NCBI RefSeq assembly: GCF_038066715.1
Contig: NZ_JBBUKT010000003.1
Coordinates: 620,001 to 684,000, forward strand
Direction of reading: 5' to 3'
Length of the DNA: 64,000 bases
Source: Luteolibacter sp. Y139
GTDB lineage: Bacteria > Verrucomicrobiota > Verrucomicrobiia > Verrucomicrobiales > Akkermansiaceae
Below are positions 2,345 through 7,239 of the stretch, in pieces; positions within the stretch are counted from its first letter, which is position 1, and the number at the start of each line of letters is the position of its first letter. Made by a program: the position numbers and the translations under genes. The notes under the pieces are model-generated. The model did not search any database. It was not told the DNA's origin and saw only the letters and a list, made by a program, of their open reading frames with translations.

Positions 2345-3778
2345 ATGAAATCCATCCTCGTCTGCCTCCCCCTGGCATTTTCGCTGAATCTCCATGCCGC
2401 CATTGGCGAATGGCGGGTCCTTCAGGACGGCGAAGGTGGCTCGATCAAGGCCCGCTTCGAAGGCCTTTCCGGCGACCGCTACCTGCTGCGCCGTGAGGCG
2501 GACGGGAAGCTTTTCGAGGTCTCTCCCGGCATGCTTCAGGGTGAGGATCGCACCAGCTTCGACTCGCAGGCCAAGCAGCTCTCCGAGGAAATCGAGAAGC
2601 TGGACAAGATGTCCGGCCACGACCTTTTCTCCGGCACTCCCTTTGAAGTGCGGGATGCGAACGAGATCGCCTCGGCGCTGAGTCTCAGCCAGGAATCGAA
2701 GACCAAGCACAGCGCCAGCTGGCGGAACTACACCGGCGATAGCTACCGCCTCTTCGGCGCGCGCCCCTACTCGGTGGCGCTCTATGCCGACCAGGAAGGC
2801 CACGCCACCATCCTGTCCGCGGTCTATTCGAACAAGGGCGACTTCAAGAGCGGCGTCGGCCAAGGCGAGAAGCACTTCGAAGGCAAGTCGACCGCCGATG
2901 AAGACAGCCTTGCCAAGGCGATGGGCGCGGACGAGCAAGCGATTCTCGACAGCATCAAGGGAGTGCTCGGCGAGCCGAAGACGCAGCGCTTCGGCGACTC
3001 GCGCGCGACGCGACGCAAGGTCAGCCGCTGGGACTGGAACGGCCAATCGCTGATCCTCTCCAGCCAGGAAGGCGAATACGTTTCGCTCTCCATCGTGCCG
3101 CTCGAACTTGCCAACGCCGGCGGCAAGACTGCCAAGGTGAAGGACGGCGATATCCGCAAGCAGATGCTCGCCGACATCGTGAAGGAGAACAACGGTGACG
3201 TCTACCTCGGCCAGATCCCGATGGTAAACCAAGGCCCGAAGGGCTACTGCGTGCCAGCCACCTTCGAGCGGGCGATGCGTGCCGCGGGCATCGACGCGGA
3301 CATGTACCTGCTGGCCATGGTCGGCAAGAGCGGCATGGGCGGCGGCACCTCCGTGGAATACCTTCTCGAGGAAGTCCGCCAGCAAGTCCGCAACAAGGGC
3401 CGCCGGACCAAGGACGAACACATCAAGGAACTGAAAGTGCGCGACGTGAAGCGCTACATCGACGAAGGCGTGCCGGTCATGTGGACCATGCGCTCGCTTG
3501 GCGAATACAACAAGGTCGCCAACGAAAACACCTCCAAGCGCAAGTCTGTCACCGACTGGGGCCAATGGGCGAAGGACATCGCCGCCCAAGCCACCACCAT
3601 CGCCAAGACCGAGGGCGAGCAGGAGAACTACCACATCTGCATGATCGTCGGCTACAACGAGGCCACCAATGAGCTGGCCGTGTCCGACTCGTGGGGTGCC
3701 AGCTACGAGCGCCGCTGGGTGCCAGCGCCGGTGGCGCAGTGGGCGAGTTCGGGTGGGTTGTTTATGATTCTGCCGTGA
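2345..3778 (+). CDS. Exported C39-like cysteine peptidase with N-terminal SHD1-like domain
   Basis: 477-residue exported protein. Signal peptide 1-19 (ends LHAA). Residues about 22-75 are an SHD1-like module (EWRVLQDGEGGSIKARFEG, KLFEVSPGMLQGEDR). The middle 100-290 is unassigned. The C-terminal 180 residues are a papain-fold peptidase of the C39-like family: NQGPKGYCVPATFERAM with Cys302 as nucleophile and the Gln four or more residues ahead as oxyanion residue, His430 in YHICMIVGY, and Asp448 in VSDSWG. All catalytic positions are present, so it should be active, acting in the periplasm or outside. A strong terminator follows at 3849. Confidence 0.8.
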   Translation: MKSILVCLPLAFSLNLHAAIGEWRVLQDGEGGSIKARFEGLSGDRYLLRREADGKLFEVSPGMLQGEDRTSFDSQAKQLSEEIEKLDKMSGHDLFSGTPFEVRDANEIASALSLSQESKTKHSASWRNYTGDSYRLFGARPYSVALYADQEGHATILSAVYSNKGDFKSGVGQGEKHFEGKSTADEDSLAKAMGADEQAILDSIKGVLGEPKTQRFGDSRATRRKVSRWDWNGQSLILSSQEGEYVSLSIVPLELANAGGKTAKVKDGDIRKQMLADIVKENNGDVYLGQIPMVNQGPKGYCVPATFERAMRAAGIDADMYLLAMVGKSGMGGGTSVEYLLEEVRQQVRNKGRRTKDEHIKELKVRDVKRYIDEGVPVMWTMRSLGEYNKVANENTSKRKSVTDWGQWAKDIAAQATTIAKTEGEQENYHICMIVGYNEATNELAVSDSWGASYERRWVPAPVAQWASSGGLFMILP

Positions 3779-3848: not shown

Positions 3849-3882
3849 AAAAAGCCCCGGGCGCATCGCCCGGGGCCTTTTT
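3849..3882 (+). terminator. Rho-independent terminator after the C39-like peptidase gene
   Basis: Ten-base-pair GC stem GCCCCGGGCG / CGCCCGGGGC around a CAT loop, preceded by five A and followed by CCTTTTTG. It lies 70 bases downstream of the stop codon and ends transcription before the sigma-factor gene. The flanking A and T runs mean it could also work on the other strand. Confidence 0.9.
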
Positions 3883-3982: not shown

Positions 3983-5920
3983 ATGGAAAAGAGCGCGCCA
4001 TCCGATCACGACCTCCTCGCCCAGTGGCTCGGCGAGCACCGTGAAGCGGCGTTCCACGCCCTCGTCGACCGGTACACGGCGCTGGTCCACGCCACCGCGC
4101 GCCGGACCTGCGGTGACGAGTCCATCGCCACCGAAGCATCGCAACTCACCTTCATCACCCTCGCGGGAAAGGCCGCATCGCTGCTGAGCTGCGCATCACT
4201 CGGGGGCTGGCTGCACGCCACTTCCATGATGCATGCGAAGAACCTCATCCGCAAATCGCAGCGCGAAAATCGCAAGCGCCATCACCTGCAACTCGCCATG
4301 GAGACGACCCCGCCGGATGCAACCAGCCAGAGTGTCTGGAAGGACATGGAGCCGATGCTGGATGATGCGCTTGCCGCGCTGCCCGCAAAGGACCGGGAGG
4401 CACTGCTGCTCCGCTTCTACCGCTCGCTCAGCATTCGCGAGATCGCGGCCACGCTTGGAATCGCCACCGCGGCCGCGCAGAAGCGCGTCGACCGCGCCGT
4501 CGAGCGACTGCGCCTCCACCTCTCCCGCCGCGGTTGTCAGGCTGGCGGCACACTCTCGGCCGCCATGCTTGCCGGCTTCGCCGTCGATGCACAGGCCGCT
4601 CTACCCGCGTCATCGGTGCTCGCGTCGAAGGCCCTCGCCGCGAGCGCAGCCACCGGCTCGCTCGCGACCCTCGCCACTTTTCTAACAGCCACTGTCATGA
4701 AGACCACCTCGTTCGTCCCACCGCTGGCCGTCCTGCTCGCCGCGGTCACTTGGATCGGCTCGCAACGCCATTCCCTCGCCAGCGTGGAAAGCGAAAGCAC
4801 CCGTCTCCGCCAACAACTCGCGGACCAAACGCTGGCTTCGACAAATCCCGGCGCCGGCACTCGCAAGCTATCCGCAGAGCGCGCCATGCCAACCGATTGG
4901 AAAGAGCTCGCCGCCCTCCTTGATGACCCGGTCATCCGCCGCCAATTCTGGCAGCGGGTGGAGAACATGACGTCGGAAGAACTCGTGCGATCGCTGCGGG
5001 AAATTTCCACGCTCAGTATGCTCCAGAGCGAGCGGGTGGCCTTGGAAAACGTCATCAGCGGCAAGCTCGTAGCGGTGGATCCCGAGGCGGCGCTGGTGAA
5101 CTTCCCCGACCAGCTCGGTGATCCGGGCATGCTTGGAAGACAATTGCCGGTCGCCCTGCTCGCATGGATGAGAAAGGAACCCGCGGAAGCCATCGCATGG
5201 CTGGACACACAGATCGCCGCGGGACGTCTCGATTCCAAGCGACTGGGTCACAGCGATGGCACGCGCACGGCCTTCGAGGCGAATGCGGTCGTGGGACTGT
5301 TGTCCTCAGACCCGGCCGCCGCAGGTCGAAGACTGGCAAATCTAACAGATGAGGACCGTGCCGAAACCATGCGCTACGCCGGGACACTCGGGATCATCGA
5401 TCCCCCGGAGGCATTCGTCGCACTGGCCCGCCAGCAACTGCCGGATGAGGGCGCGAAGGAGGCGATCAAGGCGCAAGCGGCCAAGCGCGTCCACGATACC
5501 GACTTCAGCAGCGTGAATGAATTTCTGGATGCCGTGGCCGCGACGCCCGCGGAGCGCGAGAATTGCGTCCGTTCCGTGGTTCCTGACGGAACCATGGCCA
5601 TTCTCATGCAGCGGAAGATCGCGGCGGAGGATATCCGCGCGATCCGCGACTGGGCGATATCCCAATCCCCCGCCCTCGCCGGCGAAGCCACAGGAAACAT
5701 GCTCGGCCAGATATCCATCCAGCAGGATCAGATCCCCTACCCCGAAATCATCTCACTGGTGCGCCAGTACCATGAAGCAGGCGATGGCGACTCACTCCTG
5801 ATCTCCTTCCTGGAGAACACCTACGCGGAAAATGAAGCCAACAAGGTGATGTGCCGCGAACTGGCGGAGAAAGTCACCGATGAAGCCAAGCGCTCGGAGC
5901 TGCTGCAGAACCTGAAATAA
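3983..5920 (+). CDS. ECF-type sigma factor fused to a membrane anchor and helical-repeat domain
   Basis: 645-residue protein. Residues about 8-95 match sigma region 2 (FHALVDRYTALVHATARR ... GGWLHATS) and about 125-180 match region 4 with a helix-turn-helix (LPAKDREALLLRFYRSL, then IREIAATLGIA and AAQKRVDRAVERLR). After it come an Ala-rich hydrophobic stretch (about 188-235) and a membrane helix (about 242-259, PPLAVLLAAVTWIG), a short coiled coil, and some 350 residues of helical repeats carrying a recurring D-P-x-x-A motif (DPEAALVNF, EPAEAIAWL, DPAAAGRRL). The sigma part would be cytoplasmic and the repeats outside the membrane, so this could be a membrane-tethered sigma factor that carries its own sensor. 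ATG 3983 is chosen because region 2 begins just after; an upstream ATG at 3881 lies in the terminator. Confidence 0.82.
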   Translation: MEKSAPSDHDLLAQWLGEHREAAFHALVDRYTALVHATARRTCGDESIATEASQLTFITLAGKAASLLSCASLGGWLHATSMMHAKNLIRKSQRENRKRHHLQLAMETTPPDATSQSVWKDMEPMLDDALAALPAKDREALLLRFYRSLSIREIAATLGIATAAAQKRVDRAVERLRLHLSRRGCQAGGTLSAAMLAGFAVDAQAALPASSVLASKALAASAATGSLATLATFLTATVMKTTSFVPPLAVLLAAVTWIGSQRHSLASVESESTRLRQQLADQTLASTNPGAGTRKLSAERAMPTDWKELAALLDDPVIRRQFWQRVENMTSEELVRSLREISTLSMLQSERVALENVISGKLVAVDPEAALVNFPDQLGDPGMLGRQLPVALLAWMRKEPAEAIAWLDTQIAAGRLDSKRLGHSDGTRTAFEANAVVGLLSSDPAAAGRRLANLTDEDRAETMRYAGTLGIIDPPEAFVALARQQLPDEGAKEAIKAQAAKRVHDTDFSSVNEFLDAVAATPAERENCVRSVVPDGTMAILMQRKIAAEDIRAIRDWAISQSPALAGEATGNMLGQISIQQDQIPYPEIISLVRQYHEAGDGDSLLISFLENTYAENEANKVMCRELAEKVTDEAKRSELLQNLK

Positions 5921-5940
5921 GCTTTTGAAGGAATCATCCC

Positions 5941-7239
5941 ATGAGAGTTCCCCTCTACCTTTCAGTCGCCGCAATCGCCATCGCCCTTGGCATCGGCTGG
6001 CATGATCACCACCGCCTCATCGCGGCACGCGCGGAATTGGATGCACTTGTTAGAGAAGGCGACGCACACGCAGCCGGGGATTCATCAGGCGGATCCCAGG
6101 ACTCGCGGCGAACCCGCGAGGAAGCCCGGAAAGCCGGTGCGGAACTGGCCTCCGACTGGATGGACTATCTCACCAAGCTCGAGTCGCCGGAACGCGAGGA
6201 CGGCGCGGTGCTGAAGGAGCGCGATGAGGAACTCTTCAGGCGCACGCTGCTCATGACCACCACGGGGTGGGACAGCTTCATCACCCGGTTGCTGGAAGCG
6301 GAGGATGTTCCGGAGCATATCCGGCGCTCCGTGATCTTTCGCACGCTTGACACCTGGATACCCAAGGATCCGCGCGGCGCGCTGAAGCTCATCGGGAAGG
6401 CGCGTGGACTCATCGGCGACGATCCACGCGGTGCCAGCTCGCTGAGCACCGCCATCCACTATCTGGCAAGGACGGATCCTGCTGCGGCGGTGGAACGGGT
6501 GCGGCATCCGGAGGAAAACCTGGCCGGATGCGTGAATGATCGGACCCGCACGAGCCTGATCGCCGGAGTCGCTTTCAGCGACCCCGCGCTGGCCCTGCAA
6601 CTGGTGGATGAAATGGACCTCAAGGACCGCCACAGCACCATCTTTTCCATGGGGGAAACTCCCCGGACTGGTCCGCAGAAGACAGCTGTACTGGCAGCAA
6701 TGCGCGAACGTCTTCCGGCACTCGCGAATGATGGAGCACGGGCCGAGATCTCGCAGACCATCCTGAGCGGACTCGCGAACTCCTTCACCTACGGAAACTT
6801 CAGCGAGGCCAGGCAGTGGCTCGAGTCCGCCAAGCTCACACCCACGGAACTCGCCATCTTCGCCCGGCAGGTTCAGGGCTCTGTCCTCCGCCCTGAAACC
6901 GGCCTGTGGATCGAGTGGCTCGGCTCCCGGCTTTCCCCGGATGACTCCCGCCGCATCGCCGCCACCATGATGAACGACTGGGCCGACCACGATTATCAGG
7001 CCGCCACCGACTGGCTCTCTAACAAAGCTCCCGATGGCCCCGTGAAAAGCGCCGCCATCACCGGCTACATCGGCTACATCGCCGACTACCAGCACGAAAC
7101 CGCCGCCCGCTGGGCCATCACTCTCCCCGAAGGCGACGAACGCGACAATAGCCTGCGACAAGTCTATCGCCGCTGGCCGGCCCAGGAAGCCGACGCACGG
7201 GATGCCTTCGCCAAGGAGAACGGCTTCACTTGGCCGTGA
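5941..7239 (+). CDS. Single-pass membrane protein with DP-x-x-A helical repeats, companion of the sigma factor
   Basis: 432 residues. One N-terminal membrane helix (about 4-20), then a long helical region. It repeats the motif seen in the C-terminal half of the preceding sigma-factor fusion: DPRGALKLI, DPAAAVERV, DPALALQLV, then SEARQWLES and YQAATDWLSN at 35-45 residue spacing, as in TPR-like solenoids. It starts 20 bases after the sigma-factor stop with a good ribosome site (GAAGGA), so the two are one operon. I infer that it pairs with or antagonises the sigma factor's outer domain, as anti-sigma partners do; there is no anti-sigma zinc motif. Function otherwise unknown. Confidence 0.75.
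   Translation: MRVPLYLSVAAIAIALGIGWHDHHRLIAARAELDALVREGDAHAAGDSSGGSQDSRRTREEARKAGAELASDWMDYLTKLESPEREDGAVLKERDEELFRRTLLMTTTGWDSFITRLLEAEDVPEHIRRSVIFRTLDTWIPKDPRGALKLIGKARGLIGDDPRGASSLSTAIHYLARTDPAAAVERVRHPEENLAGCVNDRTRTSLIAGVAFSDPALALQLVDEMDLKDRHSTIFSMGETPRTGPQKTAVLAAMRERLPALANDGARAEISQTILSGLANSFTYGNFSEARQWLESAKLTPTELAIFARQVQGSVLRPETGLWIEWLGSRLSPDDSRRIAATMMNDWADHDYQAATDWLSNKAPDGPVKSAAITGYIGYIADYQHETAARWAITLPEGDERDNSLRQVYRRWPAQEADARDAFAKENGFTWP

Follow-up and report, generated by a model that had tools for sequence, protein, structure and literature searches.

A conserved start codon at the sigma/membrane junction of a tethered ECF sigma factor in Luteolibacter sp. Y139 predicts a second, sigma-free product

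Few studied cases of membrane-tethered sigma factors are named in the available text of a review (PMC8999054), which presents IutY (ECF243), activated when Prc and RseP cut it and freed by intramembrane proteolysis, as the characterized route for a sigma factor fused to a transmembrane (TM) segment. The extensions of IutY and of groups ECF48, ECF52, and ECF53 are described in the same text as anti-sigma factors, with a zinc-finger domain in ECF48/52/53. Some ECF57 members are stated there to bear WD40-like C-terminal extensions, without this being a strict rule (a model is given from Singulisphaera), and a pair of cysteines is said to link the sigma2 and sigma4 domains of that group. The accessible part of another study places planctomycete extracytoplasmic function (ECF) sigma factors, many of them with WD40 repeats, in Triton/SDS fractions (PMC8567305). 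Genes within genes are exemplified, in the text available, by RpnL/RpnS and Cas10d/Cas11d, where the shorter protein made from an internal start works together with the full-length form or opposes it (PMC10327210). The locus described here lies in a 64,000-nucleotide stretch of Luteolibacter sp. Y139 (contig NZ_JBBUKT010000003.1, positions 620,001 to 684,000, from a 7.1-Mb genome), referred to as the window, and consists of a gene (P0001) encoding an ECF sigma factor, a predicted membrane helix, and an outer alpha-solenoid, together with a companion gene (P0002) 20 nucleotides downstream on the same (+) strand. The first of these genes probably encodes two proteins, the full-length fusion and a predicted sigma-free membrane protein translated from an internal start codon, since the start codon at the sigma/membrane junction is conserved and would imply such a second product.

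As far as ECF57 is described in the source cited above, the window gene resembles it in joining an ECF sigma core to a long C-terminal extension and in carrying two cysteines, C43 in sigma2 and C185 just after sigma4, that recall the ECF57 pair. It differs in having an alpha-solenoid instead of WD40 repeats, a paralogous companion gene, and a conserved start codon at the junction. The cysteine pair is complete in only 13 of 74 fusions (the first cysteine is present in 24 and the second in 22; Fisher p 0.0025). The gene is not filed as ECF57. With IutY and ECF48/52/53 it shares a sigma factor and a membrane-spanning regulatory extension in a single chain; unlike them, it has no anti-sigma domain that could be found, and no companion is described for those systems in the text available. 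The N-terminally shorter product proposed for the window gene parallels RpnS and Cas11d as these are portrayed in the accessible text, but those proteins belong to nucleases and CRISPR systems, whereas the product here would be a sigma-free, membrane-anchored copy, predicted by computation. The detergent-fraction sigma factors of planctomycetes fit the idea that such fusions are tethered to the membrane, although they come from another phylum, carry other outer domains, and are reported, in the portion of that study available, with no mention of an internal start. No internal translation start in a sigma factor or ECF fusion was described in the literature searched, which lay mostly outside subscription papers and was available in part. 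Internal starts with regulatory products are known elsewhere (PMC10327210).

In what follows, O denotes the outer alpha-solenoid part, with or without a sigma factor, C denotes the companion, and L numbers denote fetched loci. The features of the window locus are as follows.

3983..5920, + strand: sigma-linker-TM-solenoid gene P0001, 645 amino acids (open reading frame, Pfam, and TIGR02937)
4061..4264, + strand: sigma region 2, residues 27-94 (Pfam PF04542)
4358..4510, + strand: sigma region 4, residues 126-176 (Pfam PF08281, 42.9 bits)
4538..4696, + strand: Ala-rich linker, residues 186-238 (a similar linker occurs in sigma fusions with other outer domains)
4697..4699, + strand: codon of Met239, an internal ATG proposed as a second translation start (alignment, codon and RNA context)
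4697..5920, + strand: predicted sigma-free TM-O, 407 amino acids, from the internal start (extent equal to that of unfused O genes of relatives)
4703..4759, + strand: predicted membrane helix, residues 241-259 (hydropathy)
4898..5911, + strand: outer alpha-solenoid domain O (AlphaFold model ma51e103d2531)
5941..7239, + strand: companion gene C, P0002, 432 amino acids, O paralogue (open reading frame, BLASTP, profile comparison, AlphaFold)
5941..5997, + strand: predicted membrane anchor of C, residues 1-19 (hydropathy)

The favored account, held with moderate confidence, is that the window carries a two-product locus in which an O-C pair has acquired a sigma factor fused at the start codon of O and in which that start codon would still yield a sigma-free TM-O. 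Many sigma-free O genes begin with the motif M-K-x-x-x-x-x-P-P followed by the membrane anchor (some with a TTG or GTG start), and the window gene has this motif after Met239 (position 4697), which aligns with the start codon of the sigma-free genes. The preliminary description of this locus, made from the sequence alone, had overlooked this internal start codon. Conservation of the codon was assessed in 92 open reading frames (ORFs) matching the sigma profiles, of which 90 had a long C-terminal part and 89 of those a membrane helix flanked by lysine or arginine; 60 of the loci were hand-picked from match lists. In 76 of the 89 fusions an ATG is located no more than 14 codons ahead of the helix; these include 16 of the 18 fused to O and 16 of the 20 outside the family. 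Methionine occupies 56 of 356 residues at positions -8 to -5 relative to the helix, whereas no other four-residue bin between -40 and +39 exceeds 15 of 356. The same positions held 2 methionines in 92 residues among 23 kinase-TM-sensor proteins, and a methionine was present in the corresponding span of 18 out of 62 internal helices from other proteins (Fisher p 1.6e-12 against the junctions); the latter set was chosen by a stricter hydropathy rule than the junctions (2.0 rather than 1.4) and includes multi-pass proteins. These two controls rule out a junction methionine as a general trait of internal membrane helices.

The RNA around the junction ATG has the character of a translation start. 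A 40-nucleotide fold at this position averaged -2.6 kcal/mol, compared with about -8 to -13 at distances of at least 30 nucleotides (63 fusions). Synonymous-codon shuffles were used because amino-acid content explains part of this low structure, and the native RNA was also less structured than its shuffles, with a mean z of +1.11 and positive values in 68 of 76 fusions; this mean did not exceed 0.22 at distances of 14 codons or more from the ATG, and the junction of the window itself had a z of +1.27. True starts of C genes, taken over their first 14 codons, gave a comparable z of +0.97 (66 of 76 positive), whereas 152 other internal ATGs of the same genes gave -0.04 and the 62 other membrane helices gave -0.15. 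The shift was present both in the O-fused subset (z 1.12, 14 of 16 positive) and outside the family (z 0.94, t 2.6, 13 of 16 positive). Codon choice points the same way: third-position G is depleted over the 10 codons before the junction ATG (0.10, where 0.26 is expected), third-position A is enriched at codons +1 to +4 after it (0.31 versus 0.19), and lysine is written AAA rather than AAG in a ratio of 72:35 after the junction versus 714:1147 elsewhere (p 6e-9). This combination of G depletion and AAA enrichment is much like that at true C starts, and Shine-Dalgarno-like 4-mers are about equally scarce in the two places, being present at 3 of 76 junctions and 3 of 73 C starts. The junction has, as a gene within a gene does, an in-frame start codon in an initiation-like RNA context.

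Several observations weigh against the two-product account. The junction ATG is missing from 13 of the 89 fusions, 7 of which have only GTG or TTG in the span and 6 of which have neither; in 4 of the 7 (L158, L165, L192, and L219) a GTG or TTG was seen at the aligned place by reading, to which little weight is given because these codons are one base change from ATG, and the GTG of L192 has a z of -0.74. The fusions are related to one another, and when the 76 with an ATG are grouped into 18 clusters at 50% identity the mean z falls to 0.77 (t 2.3, 14 of 18 positive). Kinase helices shift in the same direction (z 0.30, t 1.8), and Shine-Dalgarno-like motifs are commoner at the starts of sigma-free O genes (6 of 32) than at the junction. 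Moreover, the membrane topology of both O and C is a hydropathy prediction alone.

The sequences of O and C by themselves are matched by BLASTP at E 8e-5, hhalign aligns a 4-sequence O profile with a 3-sequence C profile over 376 columns (98.4% probability, E 8.5e-15), and larger profiles reach 99.5% (E 2.1e-23). The window O scores 97.0% against the C profile and the window C scores 97.2% against the O profile; the three controls, a shuffled O and a pair of unrelated proteins, stayed at or below 0.6%, which rules out a loose motif match as the sole basis of the likeness. Judged by these comparisons, O and C are homologous over nearly the whole length of C. AlphaFold models both as helical solenoids, with mean confidence (pLDDT) of 84.9 for O and 81.9 for C, and places the helices of the 407-residue O at residues 68-405. 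Neither O nor C matches a Pfam family above its cut-off. The best structural matches were to generic solenoids, with Z 9.6 and a root-mean-square deviation of 14.9 over 277 residues for O and Z 11.4 and 15.9 over 337 residues for C; such generic repeat solenoids come without ligand information, and a plain Foldseek search with O gave no match at E ≤ 1e-3.

The sigma part of P0001 is that of an ECF factor, with regions 2 and 4 and with the region-3 family absent from its Pfam listing. Sigma70_r4_2 scores 42.9 bits (Pfam cut-off, 25.7) and the TIGR02937 sigma70-ECF model 58 bits (cut-off, 42.9), whereas Sigma70_r2 is weaker, reaching 19.6 bits when the protein is searched (cut-off, 24) and 24.1 in a frame search of the genome. 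No anti-sigma family was matched in Pfam at E ≤ 1, a strongly diverged one being possible, and no WD40 match was obtained at the same threshold, the outer part being predicted to be all helical. By hydropathy only, a membrane helix separates the sigma and outer parts, as in the IutY type: residues 241-259 have the highest 19-residue mean of the protein, 1.54 (residues 55-73 within sigma region 2 reach 1.47), and residues 1-19 of P0002 have a mean of 1.76. Much of the preliminary description is borne out by these results: its coordinates, gene sizes, and 20-base spacing (3983-5920 and 5941-7239), its assignment of sigma regions 2 and 4, its prediction of one membrane helix per protein, and its finding of no anti-sigma domain all agree with them. 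The six D/E-P-x-x-A motifs that it quoted are present in the translations of the two proteins, its figure of about 350 residues for the helical repeats is in line with the modeled helices of O, and its proposals that the two proteins share a fold and that the companion is paralogous to the outer domain agree with the solenoid models and with the BLASTP and profile comparisons and their controls.

Pairing of O with C is conserved well beyond the window. C matches were obtained in 170 of 260 genomes of the family and O matches in 109 of 260 (E ≤ 0.001), many of them weak; a scan of genome contigs gave only 4 relatives. In a sample of 60 loci (L081-L140) chosen from among the strongest C matches, O lies directly upstream on the same strand for 67 of 69 C ORFs, with a median gap of 12 nucleotides, and in the two remaining cases (L109 and L125) C or O is split across frames. 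A conserved pairing in relatives had been set beforehand as one of the points on which the companion relationship would stand or fall, and it held. The companion had, however, been regarded as an accessory of the sigma fusion, and this part of the proposal did not survive: a sigma factor is present on only 6 of the 67 paired O's, and 61 are sigma-free (among them L128, whose O is the rear fragment of a broken sigma-O gene). C is therefore the partner of the outer domain O, and the sigma factor is an optional addition. When all loci are pooled, including those fetched for other reasons, 92 of 95 C ORFs have an O (78 unfused and 14 fused), a count that holds some records twice (L047, L048, and L163 are the same records as L089 and L098). 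Conversely, a C-like ORF follows 17 of the 18 ORFs that join sigma and O, and the 18th (L157) reaches the end of its contig; among the 17, the C of L128 sits behind a second O fragment, and the C matches of L159 and L161 are weak (49 and 75 bits). The window genome itself contains three O-C tandems, namely that of the window and two sigma-free pairs whose gene neighbors differ, and a lone O in L037.

L035, 4123-5442 / 5447-6709: sigma-free O/C pair, window genome
L036, 4569-5846 / 5865-7202: sigma-free O/C pair, window genome

Other arrangements of these genes were also seen. In two genomes, a sigma-free O-C pair has a separate, divergent sigma gene upstream of it (L036, 3715-4356, - strand; L082, 4310-5047, + strand), as if the link were unfused. 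In L147 (10098-14484) and L149 (987-5177), an O-C pair without sigma lies 263 and 91 bp, respectively, after a sigma-TM fusion that has a different outer part and is on the same strand. Three consecutive O-C pairs occur within 10 kb in L087 (2548-12095), the third of them fused to sigma. The sigma-O genes of L128 and L129 look interrupted, the former being two ORFs and the latter an ORF that ends in a partial O match, through either a break or an assembly error. A TTGACA was noted by eye about 36 to 37 nucleotides before the likely start of the sigma-free O's of L094, L102 (883), L104, L112, L114, and L118, a spacing that suggests leaderless or very short-leader transcripts.

Sigma-TM modules are joined to more than one kind of outer part. 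The window genome has 58 sigma region-2 matches, and the outer parts of five long sigma fusions in it (L040, L041, L043, L044, and L045) are related to O/C by profile comparison, with weak cases against O in L043 (78.2% probability) and L045 (88.1%); the overlapping downstream ORFs of L040, L041, and L043 are O/C-related as well. The outer parts of L038 and L042 from the same genome, and of L165 from a relative, are not O-like. The sigma part of L165 is 79% identical to that of the window, and its outer part is unrelated to O, which places the break at the sigma/membrane junction. Trees were built from 76 O and 74 C rows, leaving out short or broken matches and the duplicates L047, L048, and L163. 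The idea of a single origin of the O fusions was tried on the O tree, which has many long and unsure branches: it needs 6 changes of sigma label, at least 2 of them forced by well-supported branches, and the fused O's do not form one clade. A branch with support 99 joins the window O to the sigma-fused O of L132. The tree of O and that of C mirror each other (r 0.90; highest of 500 permutations, 0.275), which was not taken as proof that the two bind, since neighboring genes are passed on together.

In the two-product account, an ECF sigma factor was joined in frame exactly at the start codon of O, and translation from 4697 would give a sigma-free TM-O beside the membrane-tethered sigma-TM-O. 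Both forms of O may assemble with C into mixed O-C complexes, in which the sigma-free form would keep the ordinary O-C complex going and would dilute or compete with the sigma-bearing form. The solenoids would face away from the cytoplasm, and a signal from outside, read by O-C, could free the sigma factor, most simply through regulated intramembrane proteolysis as in IutY; alternatively, the tethered sigma factor might be allowed to reach RNA polymerase.

The junction methionine and the open RNA could have a different origin. They may be the relic of repeated fusion at the start of O, or may serve some other end, such as an internal transcription start, an RNase cleavage site, or a slow spot for membrane insertion. 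Repeated fusion is plausible because the fused O's form no single clade, and the modest RNA signal among the 18 clusters also leaves room for such a relic. However, the sigma and linker parts are common to fusions with unrelated outer domains, and the methionine stays while adjacent residues differ; other internal helices and kinase-TM proteins lack both the methionine peak and a strong RNA signal, and the preference for AAA downstream of the ATG is best explained by a translation start. This explanation is considered somewhat unlikely.

Two further alternatives concern the function of O and C. The sigma factor could sense by itself through its outer domain, with the companion acting as a specific regulator or competitor of the fusion, as would suit the paralogy of O and C, their immediate adjacency, and the lack of a detected anti-sigma domain. 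This reading is unlikely, as C occurs far more often with a sigma-free O and two sigma-free pairs are found in the same genome; a companion tied to sigma was rejected on the same majority of sigma-free pairs. It is also conceivable, although unlikely, that O-C is a structural or scaffold complex rather than a sensor and that fusion merely parks the sigma factor at the membrane until turnover frees it. The generic character of the structural matches, the absence of a Pfam family above its cut-off, and the differing neighbors of the L035 and L036 pairs are compatible with a scaffold, whereas the several different outer parts carried by sigma-TM modules are what would be expected of exchangeable sensors.

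Upstream of the sigma gene, at 2345-3778 on the + strand, lies a 477-residue ORF with a signal-like N-terminus, part of which presumably resembles a C39-type peptidase. Because a terminator-like hairpin lies between this gene and the sigma gene, the O-C pair of the window is suggested to form its own operon; the consensus scan gave 1 match, compared with a mean of 2.7 in shuffles of the scanned region, and the hairpin is correspondingly weak.

3854..3876, + strand: terminator-like hairpin with a T tail, after the upstream gene (which ends at 3778) and before the sigma gene (consensus scan)

These genomes encode many membrane-tethered sigma factors. It may be, on an assessment that leans neither way, that a broad class of membrane-tethered ECF sigma factors in Verrucomicrobiota consists of two-product genes, in which the ratio of signaling to nonsignaling receptors would set a built-in threshold for sigma release and of which the O-C type would assemble with a companion. 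The conserved O-C pair offers a defined partner to test, in the form of two paralogues that occur together whether or not a sigma output is attached. If the two-product account is true, the tethered sigma factor and its sigma-free sensor would amount to a simple titration of the signal inside one gene, and annotation that assigns one protein to each frame would miss the second protein throughout the class.

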